Both the position numbers and the translations under genes were made by a program. The notes beneath the pieces were generated by a model. It did not search any database. It had not been told where the DNA came from and worked only from the letters and a program-made list of their open reading frames with translations. Positions 1-22,096 of a stretch of 22,896 nt of DNA are shown here, one piece after another. The DNA is taken from positions 1 to 22,896 of IMG/VR virus record IMGVR_UViG_3300021957_004984. The stretch is one strand, 5' to 3'. The stretch comes from a virus. Each line of letters begins with the position of its first letter. Position 1 is the first letter of the stretch.

Positions 1-372
1 CGTGCGGAATGTAAACTTGTAGGAAATGTTGAAAAAAGTGCGGCGGCAATGCCAGGTATTGTTGAACATCGTTTTAATCAACTACAAGAGATTGAGGCTA
101 TACTCAACTATTTAAATATTGAGCTACGTAGATTGCGTAGCTCATTTTTTAAAAAATATCTCGAAAACTATCAACGAGCTCTGTCAAGCCGGGACGTTGA
201 AAAATACGTAGACGGTGAGGCAGACGTTGTTGACTATGAAAAGATTATCAACGAGTTTGCACTAATGCGTAACAAGTGGCTAGGTGTACTCAAAGCTCTT
301 GATCAAAAGCAATGGCAAATTACAAACGTAGTTAAGCTCAGAGTAGCGGGCATGGAAGATGCATCAGTTTAA
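1..372 (+). CDS. uvsY: UvsY-like recombination mediator, C-terminal part
   Basis: This frame is open from the first base, so the gene begins upstream of the window; 123 residues are visible and a first internal Met lies at 49. The protein is small, charged and mostly helical, with Arg/Lys-rich stretches (LRRLRSSFFKKYL) and the tail WQITNVVKLRVAGMED. That tail resembles the end of T4 UvsY, where a large aliphatic helix precedes I-x-x-x-x-D-x-R-x-F-x-A-G. UvsY (137 aa in T4) loads UvsX recombinase onto gp32-coated single-stranded DNA. Its length, charge and the presence of uvsW in the same window fit. The similarity is by eye and weak, so a different small T4-like phage protein is possible. The stop overlaps the next gene's start by 14 nt. 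Confidence 0.5.
   Translation, partial: RAECKLVGNVEKSAAAMPGIVEHRFNQLQEIEAILNYLNIELRRLRSSFFKKYLENYQRALSSRDVEKYVDGEADVVDYEKIINEFALMRNKWLGVLKALDQKQWQITNVVKLRVAGMEDASV
120..150 (+). terminator. Terminator-shaped hairpin inside the uvsY-like gene
   Basis: A perfect 9-bp stem, TGAGCTACG (120-128) with CGTAGCTCA (136-144), closes a 7-nt loop and is followed directly by six T (145-150). This is the layout of an intrinsic terminator on the plus strand. It lies wholly inside an open reading frame, encoding the ELRRLRSSFF segment, so it may be chance, may attenuate transcription into the glycan island, or may only work when the gene is not being translated. Confidence 0.45.
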
Positions 373-1072: not shown

Positions 1073-1078
1073 GCAGAT

Positions 1079-1699
1079 ATGAAAGAATTAACAGAAAATA
1101 GGAAAGGGTGGATTTGGCCTATTAGTGACACAAACTGTTGGTCATATATGCAATCTCATCCAGACTTGCCGCAACTTATATCTAAACATGCAAATCAAAA
1201 ACGTGTATGTGTTCAAGCAGGCGGCAATATGGGCTATTATGTAAAACAATACGCAGAGCTTTTTGATACAGTATATACTTTCGAACCCGAGCCTGTAAAC
1301 TTTTATTGTTTAAATTTAAATGTAACTTCGCCTAATGTATTTAAATACCAGTCATGTTTAGGTAACAGTCGAGACTTAGTTGCATTAAAAATTAAAGCAA
1401 AGAATCGAGGTAAAAATTTTGTTAACGGCTCTGGCGTTATACCTACACTTTTAATTGACGATTTAAATTTAGAAGTATGTGATCTTATACATTTAGATAT
1501 AGAAGGTTACGAATTATTTGCATTACAAGGTGCAATTAAAACAATTAAAAAATGTAGACCTACTGTCTGTATAGAATTTTTTGAAAAATGTTCAACACGT
1601 TTCAATTATACATTAGATGACATTGAACAACTAATGCAGTCTTGTAACTATAAACTTAAAGTAACTTACGAGGAAGAGCGAGTGTATATTCCTGCTTAA
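1079..1699 (+). CDS. FkbM-family SAM-dependent methyltransferase
   Basis: A 206-aa Rossmann-type methyltransferase. Motif I is CVQAGGNMGYY at residues 44-54, where the first Asp/Glu usually seen is Gln. The acidic end of the second strand is TFEPEP (67-72). The FkbM signature D-L-I-H-L-D-I-E-G-Y-E at about 135-145 is followed by ALQGA and a P-T-V-C-I-E-F strand. FkbM-type enzymes O-methylate sugars or polyketides, and in glycan clusters they usually methylate a sugar hydroxyl. It sits between a GT25-like enzyme and a sulfotransferase. Its last 4 nt (TTAA) are shared with the end of the convergent sulfotransferase gene. Confidence 0.8.
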   Translation: MKELTENRKGWIWPISDTNCWSYMQSHPDLPQLISKHANQKRVCVQAGGNMGYYVKQYAELFDTVYTFEPEPVNFYCLNLNVTSPNVFKYQSCLGNSRDLVALKIKAKNRGKNFVNGSGVIPTLLIDDLNLEVCDLIHLDIEGYELFALQGAIKTIKKCRPTVCIEFFEKCSTRFNYTLDDIEQLMQSCNYKLKVTYEEERVYIPA

Positions 1700-2352
1700 A
1701 AGGTATATTTAAAGTTATCTATATCTTCTTGATATCTTTTCTCTACAAACTTTTTGCTTTTGTCTGAATATAGATTTTGGTATGGTATAGTTGAGCTTTT
1801 ACTTCTATTTGTTACATTTAGTTTCTGACCAGTAAAAATAGGAATACTTTGAAATCCGTCAGCTAGTTCCTCATATTTAATAATCTTATCTATCTGTAAT
1901 TTATTACTTTGCAACCAATGCGATTGATTAATTGCCAAACTAAACCATGTGTAATCCCAAGGTTGATCTAGATAATTATATAGCCAATCATCAAAATTAG
2001 TTTCCATTAGAGAATATTCTTGTTGTATTTCACTATGAGTACGTGCTACTTTTTTTGCCTGTTTAATAGGATTTTTTAGAGCCTTAGCAAGAATACTTTT
2101 CCTAAAAAAATACCAACTCGATATTCTTGACCAAGGATTTCTAACAACAGTAAATGAATAAAAATTGTCTGTGTTTTGGACATAACTTTCGGCATCTTGT
2201 AAAGTACTATGAAAATTTGTATTTTTTGTTCTATTATTCTTTATTATAGTTGTACCGTATAACTCATTAGCAAGCGTCATAATAGCATTACCTGCTGTTT
2301 TTGGAATATGTATAAACAAAACTTTACTTGGTGAATTTATAATGTAGCTCAT
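1696..2352 (-). CDS. PAPS-dependent carbohydrate sulfotransferase
   Basis: A 218-aa protein of the Sulfotransfer_2 type. The N-terminal 5'-phosphosulfate loop is FIHIPKTAGNA (residues 13-23) and the 3'-phosphate-binding segment is FTVVRNPWSRISS (67-79), both in the expected order and spacing. Such enzymes move sulfate from PAPS to a sugar hydroxyl. The start cannot be later because the PAPS loop is almost N-terminal. It is the only minus-strand gene in the glycan island. An exact T4 late motif, TATAAATA, ends 5 nt before its ATG, so its transcript may be leaderless and late. No Shine-Dalgarno is visible. Confidence 0.85.
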   Translation of the reverse strand: MSYIINSPSKVLFIHIPKTAGNAIMTLANELYGTTIIKNNRTKNTNFHSTLQDAESYVQNTDNFYSFTVVRNPWSRISSWYFFRKSILAKALKNPIKQAKKVARTHSEIQQEYSLMETNFDDWLYNYLDQPWDYTWFSLAINQSHWLQSNKLQIDKIIKYEELADGFQSIPIFTGQKLNVTNRSKSSTIPYQNLYSDKSKKFVEKRYQEDIDNFKYTF

Positions 2353-2357
2353 AAAAG

Positions 2358-2365
2358 TATTTATA
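2358..2365 (-). promoter_or_regulatory. Candidate T4-type late promoter for the sulfotransferase
   Basis: Read on the minus strand this is TATAAATA, the exact T4 late -10 consensus, followed by CTTTT and the sulfotransferase ATG at 2352. T4 late transcripts start a few nucleotides after this motif, which would place the 5' end at or next to the ATG. Recognition by a gp55-like sigma factor is inferred, and no such gene is in the window. Confidence 0.55.
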
Positions 2366-2378
2366 TGTTAACTGCGTA

Positions 2379-2386
2379 CATAAATA
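2379..2386 (+). promoter_or_regulatory. Candidate late promoter before the nucleotidyltransferase gene
   Basis: CATAAATA fits the degenerate late motif NATAAATA reported for marine T4-like phages. It is followed by TCAGT and ATG at 2392. It lies back to back with the minus-strand TATAAATA at 2358-2365, separated by only 13 nt. If functional, its transcript would begin at about 2392, which favours 2392 over 2365 as the start of the downstream gene. Confidence 0.45.
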
Positions 2387-2391
2387 TCAGT

Positions 2392-3168
2392 ATGAGCAAT
2401 GTTGTATTAGTTAGTGGCGGCTTTGATCCCTTACACTCAGGGCACATAGCCTATTTTAAAGAAGCAAAAAAATTAGGTTCAAAGCTAGTAGTAGCGTTGA
2501 ATTCAGATGAATGGCTAACACGTAAAAAAGGTAGACCGTTTATGCCTTTTGAAGAACGTGCAGCAATTGTAAAAGAGTTAAAAGTAGTAGACGAAGTTAT
2601 TGGTTTTGACGACAGCGATGATAGCGCATGCCAAGCAATTTTTCAAACACTAAGTACACACGGATCAGGCAGTAAAGTAATATTTGCTAACGGTGGCGAT
2701 AGGACTAATACTACAACACCAGAATATAAAACATATGGTAGTATGCCCTATGTAGATTTTGCGTTTGGTATTGGCGGCGAGAATAAAGCTAATAGTAGTA
2801 GTTGGATATTAGACGAGTGGAAAACACAAAAAACAGAACGTGACTGGGGTTATTGGCGTGTACTAGATCACAAACCCGAACAAGGATACAAAGTAAAAGA
2901 GCTTGTAATATATCCTGGCAAAAGTTTAAGTGATCAAAAGCACTTTAAACGTTCAGAACAGTGGATTGTACTTGAAGGCAAAGTTGATATGGTATCTGAA
3001 TGGAAGTCAAATGTTAACAGGGTTTTGTTAACTCCAGACCGATCACCTTATGAAATCGGAATTGAAGTTTGGCACAAGCCAAGCAATCCCGGAACAGAAA
3101 ACGCACACATCCTTGAGATACAATGGGGCAGTGAGTGCATAGAAGAAGACATTGAAAGAAGAGATTAA
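2392..3168 (+). CDS. Cytidylyltransferase-like enzyme fused to a cupin domain
   Basis: A 258-aa fusion. Residues 1 to about 130 are a nucleotidyltransferase of the RfaE-C/TagD superfamily: VLVSGGFDPLHSGHIAYF carries the H-x-G-H motif at 15-18, followed by ALNSDEWL and a K-K-G-R-P-F segment. These enzymes usually attach CMP or AMP to a sugar phosphate, glycerol phosphate or similar. From about 160 on, the sequence resembles the cupin of type II mannose-6-phosphate isomerase/GMP enzymes (W-G-Y-W-R-V-L, then HFKRSEQWIVLEGKVDM, and a late E-I-Q-W-G). An upstream in-frame ATG at 2365 would add nine residues. ATG 2392 is chosen because the conserved strand follows at once and the late motif lies just before it. 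It overlaps the next ATG (TAATG). Confidence 0.8.
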   Translation: MSNVVLVSGGFDPLHSGHIAYFKEAKKLGSKLVVALNSDEWLTRKKGRPFMPFEERAAIVKELKVVDEVIGFDDSDDSACQAIFQTLSTHGSGSKVIFANGGDRTNTTTPEYKTYGSMPYVDFAFGIGGENKANSSSWILDEWKTQKTERDWGYWRVLDHKPEQGYKVKELVIYPGKSLSDQKHFKRSEQWIVLEGKVDMVSEWKSNVNRVLLTPDRSPYEIGIEVWHKPSNPGTENAHILEIQWGSECIEEDIERRD

Positions 3169-4850
3169 TGCAGCCGTTAAAAATTTTTGTAGGTTATGAT
3201 CCTAGAGAGGATATTGCATTTCAAGTATGTAAACAAAGCATTCTTGATACTGCTAGTGTGCCTGTAGAAATTATTCCACTTAAACAACGGAATTTAAGAA
3301 AACAACGGCTATATACTCGTCCAGTAGATCCTTTAGCAAGTACTGAATTTACATTTACACGTTTCTTAGTCCCCCATTTAACTGATTACAGTGGTTGGGC
3401 ATTATTCATTGATTGTGATTTTGTAGCTCTTACCGATATTAAAAAACTATTTGATCAGACAGACAACAAGTATGCAGTAATGTGTGCGCATCACGATTAT
3501 ACTCCTAAAGAAGGTCTTAAAATGGACGGACAAACACAGACAGTCTACCCACGTAAGAATTGGAGTTCGTGTGTATTATTCAATTGTTCACATATAGCTA
3601 ATACTAAATTAAACTTAGGATTAATTAATAATAAGCACACTACAGGAGCATACTTACACAGGTTTAGTTGGTTAGAAGATAATCAAATTGGACAAATATC
3701 ACACGAATGGAATTGGTTAGTCGGGTGGTATGAAGAGCCAAAAGACGGCAAACCTAAAATGTTACATTACACAGAAGGCGGTCCGTGGTTTGAACAATAC
3801 CAAGACTGCGAATATGCAAATGAGTATTATAAAATTGAACGTAAATATCACCAGCAACTTATAGAAAAGTATACTAGTAAAGTAATATATCCAACACAGC
3901 TAACGCTTAACCATTCAAAAAAAAAATTAGTTGATGATTTATTAAAAGTTTTAGTAGATCCTGTTGGTCAATTTTATAATCTAGATGCAGACAATGTAAT
4001 TAGAGAGATAGACGATATGATGAAAAATAAAAAAGGTTACAAGGTAGTAGCAATACATCCAGGAGACTCATTCGACTTAGACAAAAAGCAGTTATCATAT
4101 GATCGTTTATTAGAAGGATTTTGTAGTGGAGCCCACGGACGTCTTGGTGATTTTGATCAAGAATTAGATACTTCAATACCATTAGTTATTAGAGGTCTTG
4201 GAGGTAATAGTCAAAAAGCAATTAATCATTGTTGGGATACAGGAAGACATTTTTATGCAATAGACACTGGATACTTTGGCAATGAAAGAAGTAAAGCAAA
4301 AATATGGCATAGAATAACTAAAAATAATTTACAGCAACTTGAAATTATTGAACGTCCTACAGATAGATTACGTAGACATTCATGGAAGTATAAAAAGTTT
4401 ACGCCAGGTAATAAAATTCTTATTTGTCCTCCTAGTGATAAAGTAATGAAAATATTTGGACAACCAACAGCAGCAGAGTGGACAGAGCATGTATTAGCTG
4501 AGTTAAAAAAATATACAGATAGACCAATTGAAATAAGAATGAAGCCTATTAGATCAGAACGCATATCAACAGACACTATTGAAGGTGCATTATCGAATGA
4601 TGTACACTGTTTAATAACCTACAACAGTATTGCTGCAGTAGAAGCATTAGTAAATGGCAAGCCGGCTATTACACTAGGTCCTAATGCTGCATCAAGTTTA
4701 GCTGGCAATGATCTATCACAAGTTGAAAATCTTCCTGGACATGATAAAGATACTATGACTGCATTTATGGCGCATTTGTCATACTGCCAATTTACACATC
4801 AAGAGATGCTAGACGGAACAGCATGGCGTATGCTAAATGGTGATGATTAA
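3168..4850 (+). CDS. Two-domain glycosyltransferase: GT-A-like plus island-specific C-terminal domain
   Basis: A 560-aa protein. Residues 1 to about 240 form a GT-A-like domain of the glycosyltransferase 8-like kind: KIFVGYDPRED at the N-terminus, TEFTFTRFLVP at 59-69, and the metal-binding D-x-D in FIDCDF (80-85). From about 290 on there is a second domain with HPGDSF, a C-P-P-S-D segment, DRPIEIRM, then YNSIAAVEALVNGKPA, and a final DGTAWRML. This second part is homologous to the proteins at 4850-5779 and 6651-7529. The domain resembles the donor-binding half of capsule or lipid A type transferases, but I assign no donor. The start overlaps the preceding stop (TAATG) and the stop overlaps the next ATG, so translation is probably coupled. 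The fusion suggests two sequential sugar transfers by one protein (inference). Confidence 0.75.
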   Translation: MQPLKIFVGYDPREDIAFQVCKQSILDTASVPVEIIPLKQRNLRKQRLYTRPVDPLASTEFTFTRFLVPHLTDYSGWALFIDCDFVALTDIKKLFDQTDNKYAVMCAHHDYTPKEGLKMDGQTQTVYPRKNWSSCVLFNCSHIANTKLNLGLINNKHTTGAYLHRFSWLEDNQIGQISHEWNWLVGWYEEPKDGKPKMLHYTEGGPWFEQYQDCEYANEYYKIERKYHQQLIEKYTSKVIYPTQLTLNHSKKKLVDDLLKVLVDPVGQFYNLDADNVIREIDDMMKNKKGYKVVAIHPGDSFDLDKKQLSYDRLLEGFCSGAHGRLGDFDQELDTSIPLVIRGLGGNSQKAINHCWDTGRHFYAIDTGYFGNERSKAKIWHRITKNNLQQLEIIERPTDRLRRHSWKYKKFTPGNKILICPPSDKVMKIFGQPTAAEWTEHVLAELKKYTDRPIEIRMKPIRSERISTDTIEGALSNDVHCLITYNSIAAVEALVNGKPAITLGPNAASSLAGNDLSQVENLPGHDKDTMTAFMAHLSYCQFTHQEMLDGTAWRMLNGDD

Positions 4851-5779
4851 TGTTAACTGTTACTTCTTATCTAAAAGGTATTCCGCCCAGAAATAGAAAC
4901 CCAGAAAAACCCGAAGTGTTAATAAACTTTATTAAGGGTGTAAATGCTGTAGGTGATATTGGTAAAGTTGTAGATGGGTGGAAAGTAATTGACAGTGATG
5001 TTGCTGTTGTTCAAGGCTTTGTGCATCCTGGAAGTAAAAATGTAACACACTTAAATTTAAGAAAAAATGTGTTTGATACACAACAAAAAAATAATAAACG
5101 TAGTATTATAATTGATTCTAATTTGTTTTTATATGCTGATCCAGGAAATACTAAAAAATATTTAAGATACAGTTATGACGGTATCTTTCCTACTACTGGC
5201 GAATATTGTAATTCACAACCCACTCTTAATCGCTGGGATCAAATTAGTAAAGATCTTAATTTGTCTTTAAAGCCATGGAGTACTAATAAAGAAACTATTT
5301 TAATTTGTTGTCAACGAGACGGCGGCTGGAGTATGGACGGACAACAACTTATGCCATGGCTTGTAAAAACAATAATGGAAATTAAAAAACATTCAGATAG
5401 AAAAATAGTAGTTAGATTTCATCCAGGTGATCGTAATTCATCTAAGCATAAATCTGCGCTAATTAGATATAATTTACAAAATGTTTTTGTTACATCCAAC
5501 GAGTCAATTCTTACTGATTTTAAAACAGCACATGTAGTAGTAAACTATAATTCAAGTCCGGCAGTTGCAGCAGCAATTGAAGGCATACCAGTATTTGTAT
5601 TAGATTTAGAAAGAAGCCAAGCCAAAGATATTGCTAACACAGATATTAGTAAAATAGAAAATCCAGTACTATACGATAGAAGCGTATGGATACAGAAACT
5701 TGCTCAAATGCACTGGACATCAAATGAGCTTGCAGACGGAACAGCATGGAGGCACCTAAGACAATGGGCGACAAAGTAG
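4850..5779 (+). CDS. Glycan-biosynthesis protein, GT-B-like, paralogue 2
   Basis: A 309-aa protein. Its C-terminal half matches the second domain of the preceding gene product: ILICCQRDGGWSM, then DRKIVVRFHPGD, then VVNYNSSPAVAAAIEGIPVF, then IENP, and the closing DGTAWRHL. The R-F-H-P and N-S-S-P segments look like those of GT-B transferases of the capsule synthesis type, where the H-P and S-S-P loops bind the nucleotide sugar. The N-terminal half (VVQGFVHPG, then IIIDSNLFLYAD) has no motif I recognise. ATG 4850 overlaps the previous TAA (TAATG), and the end overlaps the next gene by 16 nt. Confidence 0.6.
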   Translation: MLTVTSYLKGIPPRNRNPEKPEVLINFIKGVNAVGDIGKVVDGWKVIDSDVAVVQGFVHPGSKNVTHLNLRKNVFDTQQKNNKRSIIIDSNLFLYADPGNTKKYLRYSYDGIFPTTGEYCNSQPTLNRWDQISKDLNLSLKPWSTNKETILICCQRDGGWSMDGQQLMPWLVKTIMEIKKHSDRKIVVRFHPGDRNSSKHKSALIRYNLQNVFVTSNESILTDFKTAHVVVNYNSSPAVAAAIEGIPVFVLDLERSQAKDIANTDISKIENPVLYDRSVWIQKLAQMHWTSNELADGTAWRHLRQWATK

Positions 5780-6654
5780 TAGTATTAACAACGTTTCATA
5801 AAGAAGGTATGGAAGTTTATGGACAAAGATTTTTAGATAGTTTTGCAAATAATGTTGCTAAAGCAATAAAACTAGTAGTATATGCAGAAGACTGTACACC
5901 TGTAAATCCTGATCCTAATCAGATTACTATACTAGACGCAAAAGAATCACTTCCTAAATTAAATAAATTTAAAGAACGCTGGAAAGACGATCCAAAAGCA
6001 AATGGCAAATGTCCATGGCCCGAACGTCGTCCACGAGATTGGCACAAAGAGTTTAAATGGCATGCTATTAGATTTGCAAACAAAACTTATGCTGTATTTG
6101 ACCAATGTCATAAAAGTTACGGAACAGGTAAATGGGTAGTTTGGATGGATGCAGATACCTTTGTACATAGTCCTTGGGCGTATAAAGACTTTATGGATCT
6201 ATTACCAGAAGATCACTGGGCTACATATGTTGGCAGAGGAAAGGGAGTTAATCCGGGTCCAGAAGGAAAAATGGTAGTTAAGAACTGGCCAGAATGTGGA
6301 TTCTATGGTATTAATATGAATCATCCTGTAGGGTGCAGCTTTGTTGAAGAATTTGAACGCATGTATGAAGATGCTGACAACGGTATATTTACATTAGAGG
6401 AATGGCACGATAGTTATGTTTTTGGCAGCATATTATTTGAACTTAAATTAAAATTTCCAAAGGCATTAGATTACACTGCTGAGATTGCAGTAAACAATTT
6501 AGCAAAGTCTGGAGGCGGCGGACATCCTTTAATTAATAGTAAATTAGGAAAATGGATGGACCATATGAAGGGCGATAGAAAGTTTGCTGGATCATCAAAA
6601 AAGAAAGATGTAATGACACACAGAACAGAATCTTATTGGCAAACAGTAAAATGA
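5764..6654 (+). CDS. GT-A-like glycosyltransferase with a D-x-D motif
   Basis: A 296-aa protein. KVVVLTTFHKEG opens a Rossmann-like strand, and WVVWMDADTFVHSP (residues 124-137) supplies the D-A-D metal site typical of GT-A transferases. A later ECGFYGINMNHP and a region with EEWHDSYVF fit the acceptor side of such folds. The start is placed at ATG 5764, before the conserved strand, with GGAGG at 5748-5752 eleven bases upstream inside the previous gene. An in-frame ATG at 5746 is less likely because it would put that site inside the coding region. It overlaps the next gene as ATGA. Sugar specificity is unknown. Confidence 0.7.
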   Translation: MGDKVVVLTTFHKEGMEVYGQRFLDSFANNVAKAIKLVVYAEDCTPVNPDPNQITILDAKESLPKLNKFKERWKDDPKANGKCPWPERRPRDWHKEFKWHAIRFANKTYAVFDQCHKSYGTGKWVVWMDADTFVHSPWAYKDFMDLLPEDHWATYVGRGKGVNPGPEGKMVVKNWPECGFYGINMNHPVGCSFVEEFERMYEDADNGIFTLEEWHDSYVFGSILFELKLKFPKALDYTAEIAVNNLAKSGGGGHPLINSKLGKWMDHMKGDRKFAGSSKKKDVMTHRTESYWQTVK

Positions 6655-7529
6655 TTTTTTGTTTATATACAGACTACGGAGCATTAAATTCTAAGCCTGT
6701 ATTTGAAGCGTTTGCGCAAAGTGTAACTGATGCTGGCCATACTGTAATATATAACGAACCATATAGAGTAATGGATCATTATAGTAATTATGATGTTGCA
6801 GTCATATGGAGTGTTTTGTGGAACGGACGTATGATACATAATAAACAAGTATGGGAGCAAAACCGTAAACTGAATCGACCAGTTATTGTTTTAGAAGTAG
6901 GTGGCATTGAACGCGGAACAACATGGAAGGTAGGATTAAATGGAATCAACAGAGATGCTTACTTTGGTGACAAAGACAATGATAGGACTAGGGCTGATAG
7001 CTTGGGACTGGTTTGTAAGCCTTGGAGATCCAACGGCGATTTTATTCTAGTATGCGGACAGCATGATAAGAGTTTACAGTGGCAAAACATGCCACGTATG
7101 AGTAATTGGTTCTTAAATACATACGATGAAATACGTAAATACACTGAACGCCCAATTGTATTTCGGCCACATCCTCGTTGTAGACTAGAACATATAGAAC
7201 GTGGGCTTAAAAATGTATATAGACAGGAACCACAACATGTTAACGGCACCTATGACGATTTTGATATGGGGTTTAGTAATGTGTGGGCTACTGTCAGTTA
7301 TAGCTCAAATCCAGGGACACACTCTTGTATCAATGGTGTTCCAGCTTTTGTTAGTACCCATAGTCTTGCTTATAGTGTTGGTAATGACATAGACTTTCTT
7401 TACGATATAGAAAATCCGTTAATGCCAGATAGACAACAATGGCTTAATGACTACGCACATACTGAATACACAATTGAAGAAATATCACAAGGTACCCCAC
7501 TTAAACACTTGACAAACCAGTTATTTTAA
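6651..7529 (+). CDS. Glycan-biosynthesis protein, GT-B-like, paralogue 3
   Basis: A 292-aa protein homologous over its C-terminal half to the products at 3168-4850 and 4850-5779. Shared landmarks are FILVCGQHD, then ERPIVFRPHPRC, then VSYSSNPGTHSCINGVPAF, then IENPL, and a closing QGTPLKHL. The N-terminal half (MIFCLYTDYG, then VIVLEVGG) is Rossmann-like. The ATG overlaps the preceding stop (ATGA); a TTG in frame at 6636 was not used. The -35 box of the next promoter is encoded inside its last codons, so that promoter is intragenic. It may be a nucleotide-sugar-dependent transferase. Confidence 0.6.
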   Translation: MIFCLYTDYGALNSKPVFEAFAQSVTDAGHTVIYNEPYRVMDHYSNYDVAVIWSVLWNGRMIHNKQVWEQNRKLNRPVIVLEVGGIERGTTWKVGLNGINRDAYFGDKDNDRTRADSLGLVCKPWRSNGDFILVCGQHDKSLQWQNMPRMSNWFLNTYDEIRKYTERPIVFRPHPRCRLEHIERGLKNVYRQEPQHVNGTYDDFDMGFSNVWATVSYSSNPGTHSCINGVPAFVSTHSLAYSVGNDIDFLYDIENPLMPDRQQWLNDYAHTEYTIEEISQGTPLKHLTNQLF

Positions 7530-10678: not shown

Positions 10679-10926
10679 TGATACCAGGCGAGACACTAAT
10701 ATACGAGCGAGTAGACGGAGTTGTCTATGCTCGCTATCGAGATATGCCTGATATTGATCGTTGGATTGTTGGAGGAGATCCGGGAGGAATGGCTAGAGCA
10801 CAAGGTGATTTATTTGACTACAGTGAATGGCAAAACTTGTGTAAATTGGCAAAAACAAATACTACTCTTAAAAAATTAATGGATAAGTTAGTAACAACTT
10901 ATTACATTGTAAAGGAAGAAAAATGA
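10678..10926 (+). CDS. Small conserved phage protein, 82 aa
   Basis: An 82-aa protein, MIPGETLIYERVDGVVYARY at the N-terminus and LVTTYYIVKEEK at the C-terminus. It looks like a compact alpha/beta protein with a C-terminal helix plus strand, and I recall near-identical openings in unnamed cyanophage proteins. The ATG overlaps the previous TAA (TAATG). An in-frame ATG at 10645 inside the previous gene was rejected. The function is unknown; it sits between two other conserved small genes and kdsA. Confidence 0.75.
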   Translation: MIPGETLIYERVDGVVYARYRDMPDIDRWIVGGDPGGMARAQGDLFDYSEWQNLCKLAKTNTTLKKLMDKLVTTYYIVKEEK

Positions 10927-11699
10927 GAATTATAGCAGGACCCTGCCAACATGAATCACTACAGCAAAGTTTAGAGATTGCAAAAGAATGCAAACGTGTA
11001 TGCGACAAGTATGATATTGATTATTACTTTAAAGCAAGTTATGACAAAGCTAATCGAAGTAGTTTACAGGGAGTGCGCGGCCTCGGAATAAATGCAACAC
11101 TTAACCACTTCCTAGAACTAAAAGTAGAACTAGGTGTAAAAACACTTACTGATGTTCATGATCATGTACAAGTTGCACGTATTGAAAGAGAATTTAAATA
11201 TGCAGTTGATGTCTATCAGATTCCTGCATTCTTGTGTAGACAAACTGATCTACTAAAAGCAGTATGTGCTACAGATAAAATTGTTAATATTAAAAAAGGA
11301 CAGTTTCTAGCACCCTGGGACATGAAAGGCATTTTGTCTAAAACCGATGGTGCTAAGGAAGTTTGGATCACTGAGCGAGGAACTAGTTTTGGATACAACA
11401 ACTTGGTTGTTGATTTTACCGGCATTGATTATATGCTTTCTACTTTTGATTGCCCTGTGGTTTTTGATGCCACACACAGCGTACAGAAGCCGGGTGGCCT
11501 TGGAGGTAGTAGCGGCGGCAATAGGGATTACGTTCCTGGTTTACTTCGCGCGGCAAGTGCTTTGGGTGTTAGAGACTTCTTTATAGAGACACACCCTGAC
11601 CCAGATAACGCACCCAGCGACGGACCAAATATGTTACGCTTAGACGACTTTGAAAAGGTTGTTAAAGATATTATTGCAATTAGAAAGGCAGTAGAATGA
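10923..11699 (+). CDS. kdsA: 3-deoxy-8-phosphooctulonate (Kdo-8-P) synthase, metal-dependent type
   Basis: A 258-aa KdsA, slightly shorter than bacterial enzymes (about 270-285). It condenses phosphoenolpyruvate with arabinose 5-phosphate to give Kdo 8-phosphate. Visible signatures are IAGPCQHES, FKASYDKANRSS (37-47), LCRQTDLL, VNIKKGQFLAPWDMK (121-135), ERGTSFGYNNLVVD (151-164), FDATHSV (181-187), ETHPDPD and SDGPN. The metal ligands of the Aquifex-type enzyme are all present: Cys8, His185, Glu222 and Asp233. Escherichia coli, which uses the metal-free type, has Asn at the Cys position. It overlaps its neighbours at both ends, and kdsB follows 160 nt later after a 53-aa gene. No kdsD or kdsC is in the window, so arabinose 5-phosphate and dephosphorylation must come from the host or other phage genes. 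Confidence 0.95.
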   Translation: MRIIAGPCQHESLQQSLEIAKECKRVCDKYDIDYYFKASYDKANRSSLQGVRGLGINATLNHFLELKVELGVKTLTDVHDHVQVARIEREFKYAVDVYQIPAFLCRQTDLLKAVCATDKIVNIKKGQFLAPWDMKGILSKTDGAKEVWITERGTSFGYNNLVVDFTGIDYMLSTFDCPVVFDATHSVQKPGGLGGSSGGNRDYVPGLLRAASALGVRDFFIETHPDPDNAPSDGPNMLRLDDFEKVVKDIIAIRKAVE

Positions 11700-11857
11700 A
11701 AAAAGAGAAGTCTCCGTATATGGAAATTATTAATCGCGAATGTAAAAAAGATGGCAAAGGCCGTTTTAAGACATTAGATGTATTACGTGTATCTAGACGA
11801 TTATATGATGAGCAGCAAGAACTTATCAATTTGATTGCAACACGGACACGTAAGTAG
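11696..11857 (+). CDS. Small basic protein, 53 aa, between kdsA and kdsB
   Basis: This short frame was found by eye. It encodes MKKEKSPYMEIINRECKKDG followed by KGRFKTLDVLRVSRRLYDEQ and a tail ending in TRTRK. It is rich in Lys and Arg, helical and has no membrane segment. Its ATG overlaps the kdsA stop as ATGA, and the kdsB ATG follows its stop by 1 nt, so it fits exactly into the operon. The tight fit argues for a real gene; the function is unknown, possibly nucleic-acid binding by charge. Confidence 0.7.
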   Translation: MKKEKSPYMEIINRECKKDGKGRFKTLDVLRVSRRLYDEQQELINLIATRTRK

Positions 11858-11858
11858 A

Positions 11859-12542
11859 ATGAAGAAAACAGCAATACTAATTCCAGCACGTTACGCAAGC
11901 ACACGCCTGCCTGGAAAGCCTTTAATACAGTTAGATGGCGTTCCTATGATAAAACGTGTGTATGACGCTTGTGTTGCGTCTAAGATACCAACATACGTGC
12001 TTACTGATGACGATCGTATTGCTGATAAATTTGATCCAGAACATGTATTGTTAGATTCGGCAAAATACGAAAACGGTACAGAAAGATGCGCAGGCGCAAT
12101 TAAGAATGCAAGGTTTGACAAGTACGATCAGTTTATAAACGTACAAGGCGACATGCCAGATGTAACATCTGATATAATTGAAAAATGCCAGTGGCACTTA
12201 CTAAACTATTCTGTAACAACAGTGTTTACAGACATGCCTAAAGATAAACAAAATGATCCTAATTCAGTCAAGATGGTACGTGGAGCCGATCAAGCATTAT
12301 GGTTTGGCAGAGGCATGACTGGATATGGAGAATGGCACTTGGGTGTTTACGGGTACAAGCGTAATGCATTAGAAATGTATAGTAACTTAGAAGTAACACA
12401 AGAAGAACAAGTAGAGAAACTAGAACAACTCCGATGGTTAAAAAACGGTTGGCAAATTGGTTGTTTGAGTGTATACTATAATGGAGTAGAAATAAATTCT
12501 CCAGAGGATGTAGAAGAATGGCACAGCAAGCATTTCCAGTAA
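11859..12542 (+). CDS. kdsB: CMP-Kdo synthetase (3-deoxy-manno-octulosonate cytidylyltransferase)
   Basis: A 227-aa protein, somewhat shorter than E. coli KdsB (248). It forms CMP-Kdo from CTP and Kdo. The N-terminal nucleotide loop is IPARYASTRLPGKPL (8-22). NGTERCAG (72-79) matches the S-G-T-E-R-x-A segment, and INVQGDMPDV (93-102) carries the catalytic Asp of V-Q-G-D-E-P. The usual Glu there is Met. HLGVYGYKRNALE, LEQLRWLKNG and INSPEDVEEW follow, the last keeping the C-terminal metal-binding Asp (217). The shortened middle loop accounts for the length. The ATG follows the previous stop by 1 nt; an upstream in-frame start at 11835 was not used. Confidence 0.93.
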   Translation: MKKTAILIPARYASTRLPGKPLIQLDGVPMIKRVYDACVASKIPTYVLTDDDRIADKFDPEHVLLDSAKYENGTERCAGAIKNARFDKYDQFINVQGDMPDVTSDIIEKCQWHLLNYSVTTVFTDMPKDKQNDPNSVKMVRGADQALWFGRGMTGYGEWHLGVYGYKRNALEMYSNLEVTQEEQVEKLEQLRWLKNGWQIGCLSVYYNGVEINSPEDVEEWHSKHFQ

Positions 12543-14005: not shown

Positions 14006-14503
14006 ATGGAGTTAGTATATTATCCAGATCCTATTCTAAGTAAAGAATTACAAGATGTAAATATTGAAGAACCACAGTTTGATCCTTTGCGTCTAAAAAA
14101 AGACATGGCTGTAGCTATGTTGTTAAATAACGGCATAGGACTTACAGCATCACAAGTTGGTTTAGACTATAAAGTGTTTACCATGGGCGACAAAGCCGAA
14201 AATGTTACTTTACATATTAACCCAACTGTGTTACAATATACTGAAGAAGTTAATACAGAGCTTGAAGGTTGTTTAAGTTTTCCAGGAATGTTTGTAAAAG
14301 TAAAACGTCCGGCTGAAATACTTGCAGAATATTATGACGAGTTTCTTAAAAAACAAACAGTTAAAATTACAGGATATAGTGCTAGAGTTTATCTACACGA
14401 ATTAGATCATTGTTTGGGTATTACTATGAAAGATAGATGTAGTAAAATAAAATGGGATATGGCAAAGAAAAAAGCACGTAAGATGGAGAAGAGAGTTGCC
14501 TGA
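14006..14503 (+). CDS. def: Peptide deformylase
   Basis: A 165-aa phage-type deformylase with all three catalytic motifs. GIGLTASQVG (43-52) matches G-x-G-L-A-A-x-Q, EGCLSF (87-92) carries the metal Cys89, and HELDH (131-135) gives His131, Glu132 and His135. It removes the formyl group from nascent proteins. Deformylases are known from marine phages, where they are thought to support host organelle or bacterial translation during infection. A GAGGAAA ribosome site lies about 9 nt before the ATG. The last 8 nt overlap the next gene. All catalytic residues are present. Confidence 0.95.
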   Translation: MELVYYPDPILSKELQDVNIEEPQFDPLRLKKDMAVAMLLNNGIGLTASQVGLDYKVFTMGDKAENVTLHINPTVLQYTEEVNTELEGCLSFPGMFVKVKRPAEILAEYYDEFLKKQTVKITGYSARVYLHELDHCLGITMKDRCSKIKWDMAKKKARKMEKRVA

Positions 14504-15056
14504 TATTGATATAGATTTTGCTGATCGAGATGTAATACTATCTAAACTTACACATCGTGTGGCAAAATTAAACACAGGCAAAAAACATAATACTGGAGTA
14601 TATGCTACTGAGATTCCACACAACCCAGTAGATAATCTAAGTACTATCGAACACAAGACAGCTGACGAACGTGGCTATTTTAAATTAGATTTTTTAAATG
14701 TAAGTATATACAAAGATGTTACAAATGAAGAACATCTTCAACGACTAATGACTAAGGAACCACAATGGGCACTCCTCGAACACGACGATTTCAGCAGTCT
14801 AGTATTTCACGTCGCAGGACATGGAACTATATTAAAGACAATGCGTCCGAGAACAATAGAACAATTAGCAGCAGTACTAGCAATGATACGTCCAGCCAAG
14901 CGACACTTAGTTGGAGAAACTTGGGAAACAGTGATGAAGGAAGTTTGGATAAAACCAACGGACAATAGTTATTACTTTAAGAAAGCCCATGCAGTGAGCT
15001 ATGCAATGGCTGTTGTAGTGCATATGAACTTAATATGCGATAAAATTAGTTCTTAG
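14496..15056 (+). CDS. Miniature DnaE-like (DNA polymerase III alpha) protein
   Basis: A 186-aa protein that keeps the landmark motifs of C-family polymerases in the right order but compressed. PDIDIDFADRD (2-12) matches the catalytic D-x-D segment. KHNTGVY (30-36) matches H-A-A-G-V-V-I. KLDFLNV (63-69) matches K-F-D-F-L-G-L with the third catalytic Asp at 65. TIEQLAAVLAMIRPAKR (120-136) matches the L-A-A-x-x-A-L-x-R-P-G-P segment. FKKAHAVSYAMA (161-172) matches F-K-S-H-A-A-A-Y-A. The PHP, thumb and beta-binding parts of the usual 1,100-1,200 aa enzyme are absent. The start is TTG 14496 with GGAG at 14485-14488. Recalled relatives occur in T4-like cyanophages. Whether it synthesises DNA is unknown. 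The end overlaps a convergent gene by 11 nt. Confidence 0.8.
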   Translation: MPDIDIDFADRDVILSKLTHRVAKLNTGKKHNTGVYATEIPHNPVDNLSTIEHKTADERGYFKLDFLNVSIYKDVTNEEHLQRLMTKEPQWALLEHDDFSSLVFHVAGHGTILKTMRPRTIEQLAAVLAMIRPAKRHLVGETWETVMKEVWIKPTDNSYYFKKAHAVSYAMAVVVHMNLICDKISS

Positions 15057-17248: not shown

Positions 17249-17382
17249 TGAAAACAATTAAAAAGGTATTAAAGTTTGTGTGGTCTATTATTACATGGCC
17301 GTATAGAAAGATTAAAGAAGAAATTAAATTCCGCAAACGTATGAAAGAATTACGGGAAAAGGACCCGTTCATTTACAAATGA
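17248..17382 (+). CDS. Small basic phage protein, 44 aa
   Basis: This short frame was found by eye between primase and carbamoyltransferase. It reads MKTIKKVLKFVWSIITWPYR, then KIKEEIKFRKRMKELREKDP and FIYK. An amphipathic, possibly membrane-associated N-terminal helix is followed by a charged helix. I recall marine T4-like phage proteins with the same W-P-Y-R and D-P-F-I-Y-K ends. Its ATG overlaps the primase stop (TAATG) and its stop overlaps the next ATG (ATGA), which strongly supports translation. The function is unknown. Confidence 0.78.
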   Translation: MKTIKKVLKFVWSIITWPYRKIKEEIKFRKRMKELREKDPFIYK

Positions 17383-18338
17383 TTATCTGGGGATTAGTTG
17401 GCAACAGCCACGATGCTAGTTTAGCAGTATTTAATAATGAAGAATTGTTATGGGCAGCACTTGCTAAAGATTTTAGCGGAGTGCCCAACGATCCTCACCT
17501 AAATAAAAAACTAATTAAAAAAGCACTTAAATTTGGGGCACCAAAAGAAATTATTTGGTACGAACGTCCTTTCTTAAAAACTATTAGACAATGGCGAGCT
17601 GGGCAAGGCTGGCTAGGCAAAGAAAACAATATAGCTTCATATCTTTATGAACACAATATTGTTCGTCCAATACAGTACACCCAACATCATCATTCACATG
17701 CAGCTTATGCGTACTACACACAGCCACATGATAATTGTGCAGTTATTTGCTTAGATAGCATTGGTGAATTTGAAACACTAACCATATGGCATGGGAAGAA
17801 CAATAAACTAAAAAAGATATACAGTCAAGGCTATCCACATAGCCCAGGTTTATTTTACTCTGCAATGACACAACGTGTTGGTGGCGTTGCACAAAGAGAC
17901 GAGTACATGATTGCAGGCATGGGTAAAGACCATAACCCTGAGTACTATAGAAGTGCAATGATGGACGAGCTTATACTAAAAATGCCTACAGCCAGTAACC
18001 CGTCCTGGAAGTTTAAGACTAATTTACATCGAGGGTGCAATTGGTTTTTGCCTGAAGCTACGGATAATGAAGCCATGGGTAAACTTGCAGCAACTACCCA
18101 ACAGGTTTTTGAAGAAGCTGTCCAAGGCCTTAGTACATGGGCTCTATGGAAAACTAAAAGCCCTAACTTAGCACTAGCAGGCGGCGGCGCACTTAATCGC
18201 CAGGCTGTAGATAAAATACGGTCACATTGGAATAATATACACGTACCCCGAAACCCTGGAGACCCTGGTAGCTGTATTGGCGCTGTTTTAGCAAAAACAA
18301 AAACAAAAGTAGACCTAGAAGGAAAGTGGGTTGAATAA
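17379..18338 (+). CDS. Carbamoyltransferase, Kae1-like domain only
   Basis: A 319-aa member of the NodU/CmcH/TobZ carbamoyltransferase family. It has GLVGNSHDASLAVF near the start, the metal/substrate motif HHHSHAAYAYY (103-113), AVICLDSIGE, PGLFYSAMTQ and LALAGGGALNRQA. These belong to the N-terminal Kae1-like (ASKHA) domain. Family members are usually about 550-600 aa and have a second, YrdC-like domain that makes carbamoyl-adenylate. That part is absent here, and the frame closes cleanly 44 nt before the next ATG. The protein may use a host-made carbamoyl-AMP, or act in another way. The substrate may be a sugar in the nearby glycan pathway (inference). Confidence 0.85.
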   Translation: MIIWGLVGNSHDASLAVFNNEELLWAALAKDFSGVPNDPHLNKKLIKKALKFGAPKEIIWYERPFLKTIRQWRAGQGWLGKENNIASYLYEHNIVRPIQYTQHHHSHAAYAYYTQPHDNCAVICLDSIGEFETLTIWHGKNNKLKKIYSQGYPHSPGLFYSAMTQRVGGVAQRDEYMIAGMGKDHNPEYYRSAMMDELILKMPTASNPSWKFKTNLHRGCNWFLPEATDNEAMGKLAATTQQVFEEAVQGLSTWALWKTKSPNLALAGGGALNRQAVDKIRSHWNNIHVPRNPGDPGSCIGAVLAKTKTKVDLEGKWVE

Positions 18339-18348
18339 TAATAAAAAC

Positions 18349-18377
18349 TTGACAGTAACGCATAAAGGTAATATACT
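18349..18377 (+). promoter_or_regulatory. Sigma-70 promoter for the helicase, predicted leaderless
   Basis: TTGACA (18349-18354), a 17-bp spacer and TATACT (18372-18377), one mismatch in the -10. ATAGT and then ATG 18383 follow, a five-base gap. The same ATAGTATG string follows the primase -10 region. The predicted start is at the ATG or one base inside it. Confidence 0.85.
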
Positions 18378-18382
18378 ATAGT

Positions 18383-19804
18383 ATGACTAGACAAAATACA
18401 GATTACGGATATGATATACAAAAAGTATATCTAGAAATGTTTATGACAGACGCAGAAAGTTTTGTGCGCTGTCAAGCAGTGTTTGATCCTGAAGCGTTTG
18501 ATAGACGCTTACAGGAGGGTGCTAAGTTCTTAACTGATTACGTTAGCGAACACAATGCACTTCCAACAATGGACATGTTAAACGCCGCTACTAAAGCAGA
18601 TCTAAAAGATCCAGGGCAACTACAAGAAAATCATTATGATTGGTTGTTACAAGAGTTTGAAACGTTCAGTAAGCACAAAGCATTAGAGGCAGCAATTCTT
18701 AAAAGTGCAGACTTGCTAGAGTCTGGCGACTATGGACAGTGTGAAGACTTAGTTAAGAAGGCTGTACAGATAGGCTTACAAAAAGACTTAGGTACAGACT
18801 ATTATGCTGATCCAAGAGCTAGACTAGAAGGCATTAAAAGTACAAACGGACAGGTAAGCACAGGCTGGCCAGCTATGGATAAGAAATTGTTTGGCGGCTT
18901 TAACAGAGGCGAGCTTAACATCTTTGCAGGTGGTTCGGGTGCAGGTAAGAGTTTGTTTCTTGCCAACATTGGTGTTAACATGGCCGAGAAAGGCTTGAAC
19001 GTAGTTTACTTGACACTAGAGCTTGCAGAGAGTTTAGTTAGTATGAGACTTGATAGTATGACTACAGGTATTCCAAGTCGTGATGTGTTTAAGAGCATTG
19101 ACGATGTTGAAATGAAAGTTAAGATTATTGGCAAGAAGAACGGTGCATTCCAAGTCAAGTATATGCCTAGTGGCAAGACAGCAAATGATGTACGCAGTTA
19201 CATTAAAGAATATGAGATTAAAACAGGCAAGAAGGTAGACGTACTACTGATTGACTACTTGGATCTGTTGATGCCAGCAAGCACAAAGGTAAGCGCAGAG
19301 AACTTGTTTATCAAAGACAAGTACGTATCGGAAGAGCTACGTAACCTAGCAATGGAATTGAACACAGTATTTGTTACAGCGGCACAGTTGAATCGTGGTG
19401 CTGTGGAAGAGATTGAATTTGATCACTCGCACATCAGTGGTGGCTTGAGTAAGATTCAAACAGCAGATAACGTGTTTGGTATCTTTACAAGTAGAGCTAT
19501 GCGTGAACGCGGACGCTATCAGCTACAGCTAATGAAGACACGTAACTCAAGTGGAGTAGGACAAAAGATTGATCTAGGCTTTGATTTAGATACTCTTCGA
19601 ATTATTGATATTGGTGATGAAGATGAGCAATCAACAGCACCACAAGGAGGTGCTAGTGCTATTGCTGCTGCGCTCAAACGTACAAATGTTGTATCAACAG
19701 TTTCAGATGTTCCTAGTGAAGGAACTACAGCACCTAAAGTTAAAGAACAAACAGACTCTACTAAACTACGACAATTCTTAAATAATTTACCCGGTGACGA
19801 ATAA
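18383..19804 (+). CDS. 41: gp41-type replicative DNA helicase
   Basis: A 473-aa DnaB-like helicase, equal in length to T4 gp41 (475). The N-terminal helical domain (1 to about 140) precedes a RecA-like domain. Walker A is GSGAGKS (184-190), the strand after it NVVYLTLE, Walker B VDVLLIDYLDLL (285-296), then VFVTAAQLNRG and a C-terminal QLQLMKTRNSS with the Arg finger region. It unwinds duplex ahead of the fork and recruits gp61 primase. The C-terminus is a Ser/Thr/Pro-rich linker ending RQFLNNLPG, a likely partner-binding tail. It is transcribed from its own promoter, 5 nt before the ATG. Confidence 0.95.
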   Translation: MTRQNTDYGYDIQKVYLEMFMTDAESFVRCQAVFDPEAFDRRLQEGAKFLTDYVSEHNALPTMDMLNAATKADLKDPGQLQENHYDWLLQEFETFSKHKALEAAILKSADLLESGDYGQCEDLVKKAVQIGLQKDLGTDYYADPRARLEGIKSTNGQVSTGWPAMDKKLFGGFNRGELNIFAGGSGAGKSLFLANIGVNMAEKGLNVVYLTLELAESLVSMRLDSMTTGIPSRDVFKSIDDVEMKVKIIGKKNGAFQVKYMPSGKTANDVRSYIKEYEIKTGKKVDVLLIDYLDLLMPASTKVSAENLFIKDKYVSEELRNLAMELNTVFVTAAQLNRGAVEEIEFDHSHISGGLSKIQTADNVFGIFTSRAMRERGRYQLQLMKTRNSSGVGQKIDLGFDLDTLRIIDIGDEDEQSTAPQGGASAIAAALKRTNVVSTVSDVPSEGTTAPKVKEQTDSTKLRQFLNNLPGDE

Positions 19805-19810
19805 GGAGGT
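19803..19810 (+). promoter_or_regulatory. Strong Shine-Dalgarno that fixes the next start
   Basis: AAGGAGGT, a near-perfect anti-16S complement, overlaps the helicase stop and lies 4 nt before ATG 19815. It shows that ordinary SD initiation is used here, in contrast to the leaderless-type starts. A GTG at 19794 in the same frame would place this site inside the gene and is rejected. Confidence 0.85.
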
Positions 19811-19814
19811 ACAT

Positions 19815-20504
19815 ATGATTAGACAACTTACACTAGAAGAAATAAATCATCACATCAAAGATGATACAGTACGACCTCATTTATCAGCAGAGTTTAGAGT
19901 CAACCATAATAGACAAGTGTGGGGATTGTTTGACGAATCGTCAGATAGTCTGTTGGCTGTATGCTGTGTTGCATACTGTACTAGCGTACCAGAGACTGAG
20001 TTTGAACTAGCACAGCAAAGTAGATCGCCCACTGTTAGTGAGCATGAACTAGATCCAACACCACTTGATCCAGCTGCATTTAATCCTAGTGCTCATTCGT
20101 CAGTTGAGCAAGCACTAGAGCAAGCACAACAAAGTCAAGGAAATCTCAAAGTGTGGCCTTGTGGTACCATTACTAATCGATTTGGTGAAACAATGATTTA
20201 CGATACTTCTGGAAATATAGCGCCATGTATTCGAGGAAGTTTTATACAAGAACATTATAATACTGCTGTATTTTATACTGTGTGGAGTTATAACCCTGGC
20301 GCAGGCGCACAAATGGTAAATCAACTTGCTGAACATATCCGTAATACTAATACCGAAATTTTACGGTGGGTAACACTAAGTCCTCTTACAAAAATGGCAG
20401 AAAGATTCCACATCAAAAACGGCGCCGAGTTTGTAGCAAGTTATGACGTTAATCAAACATTTGAATATACACACCTTATGACAGCAACCAAACATTCCGA
20501 ATAA
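19815..20504 (+). CDS. GNAT-like acetyltransferase-fold protein
   Basis: A 229-aa protein. The first 70 residues (RQLTLEEINHHIKDD, VWGLFDESSDSLLAVCCVAY) look like GNAT strands 1-3. An insert of about 50 residues rich in Gln, Pro, Ser and Ala (near 70-115) is probably disordered. FYTVWSYNPGAGAQMVNQLAEHI then resembles GNAT motif A (Q/R-x-x-G-x-G/A). RWVTLSPLTKMAERFHIKNGAEFV matches motif B with its x-x-F-Y/H-x-K-x-G-A end. Acetyl-CoA-dependent N-acetylation is the family reaction; the target is unknown. It sits with helicase and before a virion gene. The assignment is moderate. Confidence 0.7.
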   Translation: MIRQLTLEEINHHIKDDTVRPHLSAEFRVNHNRQVWGLFDESSDSLLAVCCVAYCTSVPETEFELAQQSRSPTVSEHELDPTPLDPAAFNPSAHSSVEQALEQAQQSQGNLKVWPCGTITNRFGETMIYDTSGNIAPCIRGSFIQEHYNTAVFYTVWSYNPGAGAQMVNQLAEHIRNTNTEILRWVTLSPLTKMAERFHIKNGAEFVASYDVNQTFEYTHLMTATKHSE

Positions 20505-20507
20505 ATA
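20500..20507 (+). promoter_or_regulatory. Candidate late promoter before the FG-GAP gene
   Basis: AATAAATA (NATAAATA type) overlaps the stop of the GNAT-like gene. The FG-GAP gene starts 35 nt later with an AAAAGGAT ribosome site, so this late transcript would carry a normal leader of about 30 nt. Confidence 0.5.
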
Positions 20508-20542
20508 AAAGTAACGCACTTAATTTATAAAAGGATTATCTA

Positions 20543-22096
20543 ATGATCGGAAGACTAGCTGCAGTTGACTTGGATGCTGTATCTACAGCAACTAGTATAT
20601 ACAGATGTAGAACTACAGGATATGCAGCGGTTAGCTTAACTGTATGTAACAGAGGCACATCGTCTGCTAACATTACAATAAGCATAAGCGACACAGTTAA
20701 TGCAACAGACTTAGCTGGAACAATAGAATTCCAATATTCAATACCTGCCAAGGACGTTCTAGAACGCACGGGCATAGTGGTTGGTTCTACACAATACCTT
20801 ACAATTACATCATCATCAACAGACATTAGTATTATAGCAATGGGTGCCGAAACAGGCGAGTTTGATTCAGATATTGCAGATATCCCACTTCCGGTTTTTG
20901 AATGGAGTCAAACATATGGCTTTGACAATCCTAATGATTATTCTGGCGCCAGCGACGATGAATTCGGTAAAAGTATTGCTATAGGAAACAACTATATGGT
21001 AGCTGGTGCAGACTTTGAAGACGATGCAGGCGGTAGTGCTTCAGGTAAAGCCTATGTGTACAGCACATCAACTGGCGCACTCACATACACATTGGACAAT
21101 CCAAATGGCCATGATACTACAGCAGGTGACAGATATGGTTTTGCCGTTGCTGTTAGTGACAACCATATTGTAGTTAGCGCACCATACGAAGACGATTCAA
21201 ACGGTACTTCACAGGGTAAGGTATATGTGTATAATCCAAGCACGGGCGGATTAACCCGCACTATCGACAATCCAAGCAGCAGTTACCTGCGTGGTGATCA
21301 ATTTGGTTGGGCTCTTGCTATAGACAGTGACACGCTACTGGTTGGTGCGCATTGGTACGCAGATTATGATGGCCGGGCTTATCTTATCAATGCCAGTACA
21401 GGCAGTGTACTACACACACTGGAAAATCCCAATAGTTATGACGAACTTGGCACCGACAATGATACCTTTGGAGAAAGCGTGGCCATACACGGCAACTTGT
21501 GTATTGTTGGTGCACCTCATGAAGACAAAGCAGGCAGCGGTACATCAGGCAGTCGCGTGGGAGCAGCCTACATTTTTAATGTAAGCACAGGCGCAACTGA
21601 ACACACACTACTAAATCCAGATCCAGACAATGATGCAGAAAATGATCAATTTGGCGAAAGTGTAGCTATACACGGCAGCTATGCAGCAGTTGGAGCTCCG
21701 GGCGAAGGATCCACTCCCGAGGGAGGATATGTATACATATACAACACTTCAACAGGAGCACTTGTACAATCAATAGCTGCACCTTCAGGTGCAGACAGCT
21801 GGTCAATTGGACGCCTAAGATCGTTAGCCATGAACGCAGACTACGTATTCATGGGCGATTATGGAGCAACAATCGACGGTGAATTCGGCCAAGGCAAAGT
21901 GTATGTGTACCGTATTTCAACAGGCGCACTTGTACACACTATAGTAAATCCTCAAACAGCAAGTGGAGTCAACAACAGTCAATACTTTGGCAGTGCTGTT
22001 GCAGCTGTGGGCAACAGAATTGCTGTAGCTGAAGAACGACATAGAGTAGGCGGCGCGAACTTCGCAGGCAAAGCACACATCTACGACCTCGACTAG
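20543..22096 (+). CDS. FG-GAP beta-propeller protein with a virion-type N-terminal domain
   Basis: A 517-aa protein. Residues 1 to about 115 (GRLAAVDLDAVSTATSIYR, then EFQYSIPAKDVLERTGIVV) resemble small tail-associated domains of marine phages. From about 125 there are seven FG-GAP-like repeats of about 50-58 residues, each with D-x-F-G-x-x-x-A, then V-G-A, G-K-x-Y-V-Y, S-T-G-x-x-x-x-T and N-P. The seventh ends in G-K-A-H-I-Y-D, with the first strand supplied by the segment before repeat 1, as in a closed seven-blade propeller. Repeats 1, 2 and 4 have D/E-rich calcium-type loops. Integrin-like propellers bind ligands, so this is a candidate receptor-binding or virion adhesin. The DNA here looks richer in G and C and in repeated codons than its neighbours. 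A late promoter and AAAAGGAT precede it. Confidence 0.88.
   Translation: MIGRLAAVDLDAVSTATSIYRCRTTGYAAVSLTVCNRGTSSANITISISDTVNATDLAGTIEFQYSIPAKDVLERTGIVVGSTQYLTITSSSTDISIIAMGAETGEFDSDIADIPLPVFEWSQTYGFDNPNDYSGASDDEFGKSIAIGNNYMVAGADFEDDAGGSASGKAYVYSTSTGALTYTLDNPNGHDTTAGDRYGFAVAVSDNHIVVSAPYEDDSNGTSQGKVYVYNPSTGGLTRTIDNPSSSYLRGDQFGWALAIDSDTLLVGAHWYADYDGRAYLINASTGSVLHTLENPNSYDELGTDNDTFGESVAIHGNLCIVGAPHEDKAGSGTSGSRVGAAYIFNVSTGATEHTLLNPDPDNDAENDQFGESVAIHGSYAAVGAPGEGSTPEGGYVYIYNTSTGALVQSIAAPSGADSWSIGRLRSLAMNADYVFMGDYGATIDGEFGQGKVYVYRISTGALVHTIVNPQTASGVNNSQYFGSAVAAVGNRIAVAEERHRVGGANFAGKAHIYDLD

Follow-up and report, generated by a model that had tools for sequence, protein, structure and literature searches.

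What would a marine phage do with a protein that ends in an integrin-like propeller and is encoded beside its replication genes, apart from its tail cluster? The window, meaning the whole stretch of DNA analysed, is the complete viral record IMGVR_UViG_3300021957_004984 (22,896 bases), itself a genome fragment, and its DnaB shows 54% identity to the DnaB of jumbo phage PA5oct and 51% to that of Atu_ph07. The protein has two parts, an all-beta domain at residues 1-107 and an FG-GAP propeller at residues 117-517. The preliminary description placed its gene at the end of a cluster; this is correct only insofar as no other substantial gene follows it on what is a contig fragment. Megablast comparison of the window's right half with phages gave no match, and viral contigs scanned with a single-protein query, either the complete protein or its N-terminal domain, returned zero relatives. 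Relatives of the DnaB are encoded by at least 600 viral stretches, and 80 loci were retained for comparison.

20543-22096, plus strand: gene for the FG-GAP propeller protein, an intact open reading frame from ATG to stop, 517 aa

Several other genes of the window were characterized alongside. A set for glycans or surface sugars occupies 359-7529 and 10923-12542 and includes glycosyltransferase 25 and 8-like genes, an FkbM methyltransferase, a sulfotransferase, a cytidylyltransferase with a mannose-6-P isomerase-like domain, a DAHP-synthetase-family gene that resembles KdsA, and a cytidylyltransferase that resembles KdsB. A phage-encoded peptide deformylase lies at 14006-14503 (Pfam 6.8e-35), followed at 14496-15056 by a short DNA polymerase piece of 186 aa (phrog_11778, 2e-60); as a 551-aa frame after DnaB in locus L088 (1295-2950) reads like a piece of bacterial Pol III alpha, the polymerase of this clade may span several genes. 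At 17379-18338 the carbamoyltransferase is limited to its N-terminal half (319 aa, matching phrog_1601 over positions 1-321 of 528), a half-length form common to many relatives, and full-length copies exist too (L268, 588 aa). Between DnaB and the propeller gene lies a gene (19794-20504) for a protein of 236 aa, compared with 156 aa in L031; an internal segment of this protein, roughly residues 80-150, is missing from the homologues of relatives, and its C-terminal part shows a weak MCD-like Pfam match.

A predicted seven-bladed FG-GAP propeller

The repeats of the 517-aa protein score well above the curated cut-off of Pfam FG-GAP_2 (PF14312; 7.1e-48, 161 bits vs a cut-off of 23, six stretches), which places it in that family. 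Blade 6 was missed by Pfam, and all seven blades were recovered with a blade profile built from viral relatives, at i-Evalues of 1e-25 to 8.5e-9; a five-blade alignment from the window was dropped as a scanning query for being too divergent.

20900-20944, plus strand: lone outer strand that would complete blade 7 ('velcro' closure), residues 120-134 (partial blade-profile match, columns 40-54)
20954-21109, plus strand: blade 1, residues 138-189 (blade profile, i-Evalue 1.1e-25)
21125-21277, plus strand: blade 2, residues 195-245 (blade profile, i-Evalue 4e-24)
21293-21442, plus strand: blade 3, residues 251-300 (blade profile, i-Evalue 2e-18)
21458-21625, plus strand: blade 4, residues 306-361 (blade profile, i-Evalue 9e-24)
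21641-21787, plus strand: blade 5, residues 367-415 (blade profile, i-Evalue 2e-20)
21821-21958, plus strand: blade 6, with a degenerate FG motif, residues 427-472 (blade profile, i-Evalue 2e-14)
21980-22093, plus strand: blade 7, without an outer strand of its own, residues 480-517 (blade profile, i-Evalue 8.5e-9)

In the alignment, residues 120-134 correspond to strand four of the remaining blades, the strand that blade 7 lacks, and the ring would thus be closed by a 'velcro' arrangement; in the AlphaFold2 model a strand is present at residues 121-128. This model, calculated with 28 relatives as input, reaches a pLDDT of 87 and a pTM of 0.92 for the propeller, and its nearest solved folds are the heads of integrin alpha subunits (Foldseek E 3e-17), with which it aligns at Z 39.4 and 2.8 A over 353 residues. 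Across viral relatives, the number of blades per open reading frame peaks at seven, with some frames at 14 and 21, supporting seven as the closed unit. A PDB sequence search with the protein at E 0.1 gave no match; viral fold matches include a 'hemagglutinin' of Atu_ph07 and proteins of several giant viruses. Residues 117-517 are therefore modeled as a closed seven-bladed FG-GAP propeller, in agreement with the seven repeats that had been read from the sequence, and the structure prediction that had been proposed as a check came out in favor of the fold. The propeller fold alone does not reveal function.

An anchor domain from tail-fibre clusters

20543-20863, plus strand: N-terminal anchor domain, all-beta, residues 1-107 (profile matches, phrog_11338, model)

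The N-terminal domain, modeled as eight strands at a pLDDT of 90, matches phrog_11338, annotated 'tail fiber protein', and has as its paralogue a ~105-aa protein, standalone in relatives and located 3′ of a tail-fibre gene. The phage virion-type N-terminal domain of the preliminary description is thereby corroborated, by homology both to a tail-fibre family and to these standalone proteins. Profile searches detected homologues in 13 of 50 records, and a wider scan confirmed 519 stretches, 80 loci being retained, some of which overlap; in the retained loci, 117 of the 130 homologous frames are standalone (at most 130 aa). The tail loci examined show a constant order, in which a gene of ~1,657 aa is followed by the ~105-aa protein, a gene starting with MGR or MAR and often a glycine-rich adhesin-like gene. 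The one ~1,657-aa gene that was scanned is a tail fibre (phrog_9851, 2e-152, plus CBM5/12). The fold of the anchor domain resembles jelly-roll proteins of phage heads, namely the KHP40 cement (Z 8.5) and HFTV1 turret (Z 7.9) proteins, at Z values that are common for beta sandwiches. Naming a family from this fold was rejected, as the matches were mixed and even the best Z, 9, is common among such sandwiches.

Exchange of C-terminal parts

Fused copies of the anchor domain occur only in the DnaB clade of the window phage, and each carries a different C-terminal part. In the window this partner is the FG-GAP propeller; in L031 it is a He_PIG Ig domain, with a Gly_rich_2 gene adjoining; in L088 and L098 the fusion is 475 aa long with no significant Pfam match and is lectin-like by eye only; L123 has a fusion of 436 aa, and L014 and L121 have one of 557 aa with a divergent domain. 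G017 has both forms, a standalone anchor in the tail cluster and a fused anchor downstream of DnaB. The comparison among close relatives that had been suggested thus bears out the proposed module gain or exchange, as the anchor is retained and the parts behind it (the propeller, He_PIG, and those of L088, L123 and L014) are swapped. The exact anchor-propeller pair was found at no other locus among those searched, none of the relatives examined has an FG-GAP protein directly downstream of DnaB, and in the 50 relative records FG-GAP_2 is otherwise confined to long frames of 1,626 to 5,136 aa. In L014-L043 nearly every relative has a different gene after DnaB, be it tail-fibre-like, a polymerase piece or unknown, which makes the position resemble an insertion hot spot.

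A probable late promoter

18349-18377, plus strand: sigma-70-type promoter TTGACA-17-TATACT before the DnaB gene (consensus match; regional match count near chance)
20500-20507, plus strand: probable late-promoter element AATAAATA, ~36 nt before the start codon (NATAAATA is enriched before open reading frames of relatives)
20531-20535, plus strand: Shine-Dalgarno-like AAGGA (direct reading of the sequence)

T4-type late promoters carry the element TATAAATA. Matches to it with one mismatch occur at chance level across the window, and the evidence for the element comes from its placement in relatives. In their tail loci, all 24 copies of the late element lie at most 60 nt upstream of open reading frames, where 0.9 would be expected, and AATAAATA lies upstream of such frames in 17 of 18 cases in tail loci (0.7 expected) and in 33 of 60 in DnaB loci (3.5 expected). 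The anchor-domain genes of L031, L088 and L099 are preceded by GATAAATA, and those of L123 and L121 by TATAAATA, each a few tens of bases 5′ of the ATG. The late promoter that had been proposed is borne out by this enrichment, and the propeller gene is probably transcribed late, judging from its NATAAATA element. A scan for a terminator 3′ of the gene found none.

Base composition and origin of the propeller

The preliminary description took the base use of this gene, different from that of its neighbors, as a sign of module gain. The propeller part indeed has the highest GC in the window (0.470, compared with 0.405 in the anchor and 0.285-0.408 in other genes), but the excess lies mainly at codon positions 1 and 2, and Gly and Ala make up 24% of the residues; GC3 is 0.354 vs 0.19-0.33 in other genes (next highest 0.333). 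Since the raised GC stems largely from Gly/Ala content, it is poor evidence of transfer, and we rejected base composition as proof of it.

The best propeller matches are viral, with 40-45% identity over ~400 aa and up to 279 bits, and the best bacterial match reaches 142 bits at ~35% identity; both sets come from one query alignment and are a sample, not a census. Regarding such propellers as eukaryote and bacterial modules, as was done at first, is too narrow, as phages and other viruses commonly encode them and that of the window is closer to the viral propellers than to the bacterial ones recovered. Annotated phages with FG-GAP proteins include S-TIM5/66, S-MbCM6/25, S-H9-2, nt-1 and Phosso. 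In locus L135 the propeller belongs to a baseplate-wedge protein (phrog_13163, 1.8e-107), and the surrounding cluster includes an anchor-domain-like gene of 112 aa.

A hypervariable face in related propellers

Integrins bind their ligands through the face of the propeller formed by the 4-1 and 2-3 loops. We compared blades within the same viral protein, restricted to pairs with at least 70% identity (815 pairs from 34 proteins), and observed that at blade positions 1, 3, 6, 20, 21, 28 and 29 the amino acid differs in 67-85% of pairs, nearly always non-synonymously, whereas variation at the remaining positions is mainly synonymous. Ranked by variability, the top eight positions are all located in loops 4-1 and 2-3 (hypergeometric P 5e-4; we defined the loop limits ourselves). 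Pairs whose four-fold divergence is only 6% still differ in 63% at the seven positions, compared with 15% in the framework, and each of 27 non-redundant proteins changes more at the seven than in the framework or at four-fold sites. When positions were picked on one half of the proteins, the seven differed in 68% in the held-out half, vs a neutral maximum of 33% calculated from free change of all three codon bases, so relaxed constraint is insufficient, and the simplest account is diversifying selection combined with a framework that is homogenized. The same positions are hypervariable in a bacterial FG-GAP_2 sample (L214-L267) as in the viral set (L134-L213). The blades of the window itself, too divergent for codon analysis, show the pattern at the amino-acid level (0.92 at the seven positions vs 0.59 at the rest, permutation P 0.0003), and the residues at its variable positions include F, Y, W, H and R.

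A diversity-generating retroelement was considered as the source of the variable sites and is thought unlikely, because the sites are spread across all blades, because Gln and Trp (about 9%) cannot be reached by adenine-only mutation of AAY codons, and because third-base use at the sites differs little from that of the framework. We give roughly even chances to a broader reading, in which phage FG-GAP_2 propellers, and perhaps bacterial ones, would be a repeat-built recognition scaffold with about seven diversifying positions in each of seven blades, ringing an integrin-type ligand face on a uniform framework, and in which the window gene would be an older, more diverged member mounted on a tail anchor. 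If this is true, host range could shift through changes in single blades in addition to the swapping of whole modules.

Function of the propeller protein

The best explanation, and in our judgment the probable one, is that the gene encodes a virion protein, expressed late, whose role is that of an exchangeable tip for receptor binding or adhesion. We infer that the protein is incorporated into the virion, which virion part it attaches to, and that it binds a ligand. Its N-terminal ~107 residues, derived from a small protein of the tail-fibre cluster, would plug it into the tail or fibre assembly, and the C-terminal ~400 residues would form the closed seven-bladed propeller with loops 4-1 and 2-3 facing the host surface; the ligand of the face so presented would probably be a glycan or a protein. 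In relatives the retained anchor bears different C-terminal parts. Variability restricted to one face in related propellers is as expected of a recognition surface. Also in favor of this explanation are the viral propellers of the family, one of them within the baseplate-wedge protein of L135, and the homologues of S-TIM5 and S-TIM66 annotated as virion structural proteins; against it count the location of the gene, beside replication genes and outside the tail cluster, and the recovery of the anchor-propeller pair at no second locus.

A structural or decorative role, with the propeller as a stiffening or decorating element of the tail, baseplate or head that has no specific receptor role, or only one of general sticking to mucus, particles or biofilm, appears unlikely. 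It draws on the jelly-roll likeness of the anchor to head cement and turret proteins, at those Z values common for beta sandwiches, and on one relative, L135, whose propeller sits inside a baseplate-wedge protein; the face-restricted hypervariability of related propellers and the exchange of C-terminal parts fit recognition better. We hold it distinctly improbable that this is a late protein acting outside the virion, for instance set free at lysis or displayed on the surface of the host, where it would bind or block receptors or competing phages: the gene does lie apart from the tail cluster and adjoin replication genes, but the anchor is a paralogue of a tail-fibre-cluster protein, the homologous propellers of S-TIM5 and S-TIM66 are annotated as virion structural proteins, and inspection of the N-terminus by eye revealed no evident signal peptide. 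A passenger recently gained from a bacterial host gene and not yet integrated into the virion, which the GC above that of the neighbors and the missing FG-GAP at the DnaB-downstream position of the relatives examined might suggest, is very improbable given that the GC shift is largely amino-acid driven, that the closest relatives are viral by bit score, and that the propeller forms an in-frame fusion with a phage domain behind a late-promoter element.

The reading as a receptor-binding or adhesion tip identifies a small, widespread domain of tail-fibre clusters that is able to carry interchangeable tips, one of them a propeller of integrin fold. As the variation of phage FG-GAP propellers is almost confined to the face equivalent to that which binds integrin ligands, it also yields a testable prediction of the contact surface.

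Comparison with known systems

Propeller receptor-binding proteins and FG-GAP phage proteins are both known already. The searchable papers, which exclude most subscription journals, held no description of the anchor-propeller combination or of face-restricted variability, and no paper on FG-GAP tail proteins. The closest annotated counterparts are the FG-GAP proteins of cyanophages S-TIM5 and S-TIM66 (H6WG31; UYE96926, 'virion structural protein'), which share a ~407-aa propeller with 31-32% identity over 68% of the query and a fold match in BFVD; unlike the window, these phages belong to another lineage, the gene lies near ThyX, and the anchor domain was not found at the locus. Proteins of L136, L139, L142, L167 and L135 belong to the same propeller family (40-45% over ~400 aa, seven blades per unit), but the blades within each are far more alike than those of the window, and the first four have different heads, beginning MAIKV or MAIIKPKRS.

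The metazoan integrin alpha propeller shares the seven-bladed FG-GAP fold (Z 39), and its 4-1/2-3 loop face corresponds to the variable face described here. It differs in its DxDxDG calcium loops, of which a search for the pattern D.[DN].DG found no match in the 517-aa protein, in sequence (15-19% identity), and in having integrin legs and a beta subunit; given the low identity and the absence of DxDxDG, the window protein is integrin-like by fold and is not an integrin.

Other receptor-binding proteins contain propellers, and that of Gp45 from phage phi11 is five-bladed. Gp45 (PMC4901313) is likened to our reading by description, as a propeller forms the binding part of a receptor-binding protein. 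The WD40 repeats of Podospora HET-D and HET-E build a seven-bladed propeller in which the framework is conserved and a small number of sites on the interaction face are hypervariable (PMC12222747); they belong to an unrelated family in fungal NOD-like receptors, and the likeness is one of analogy only. The predicted contact surface would concern a common, little-studied class of marine phage proteins, in parallel to the recognition propellers that fungi build from WD40 repeats.
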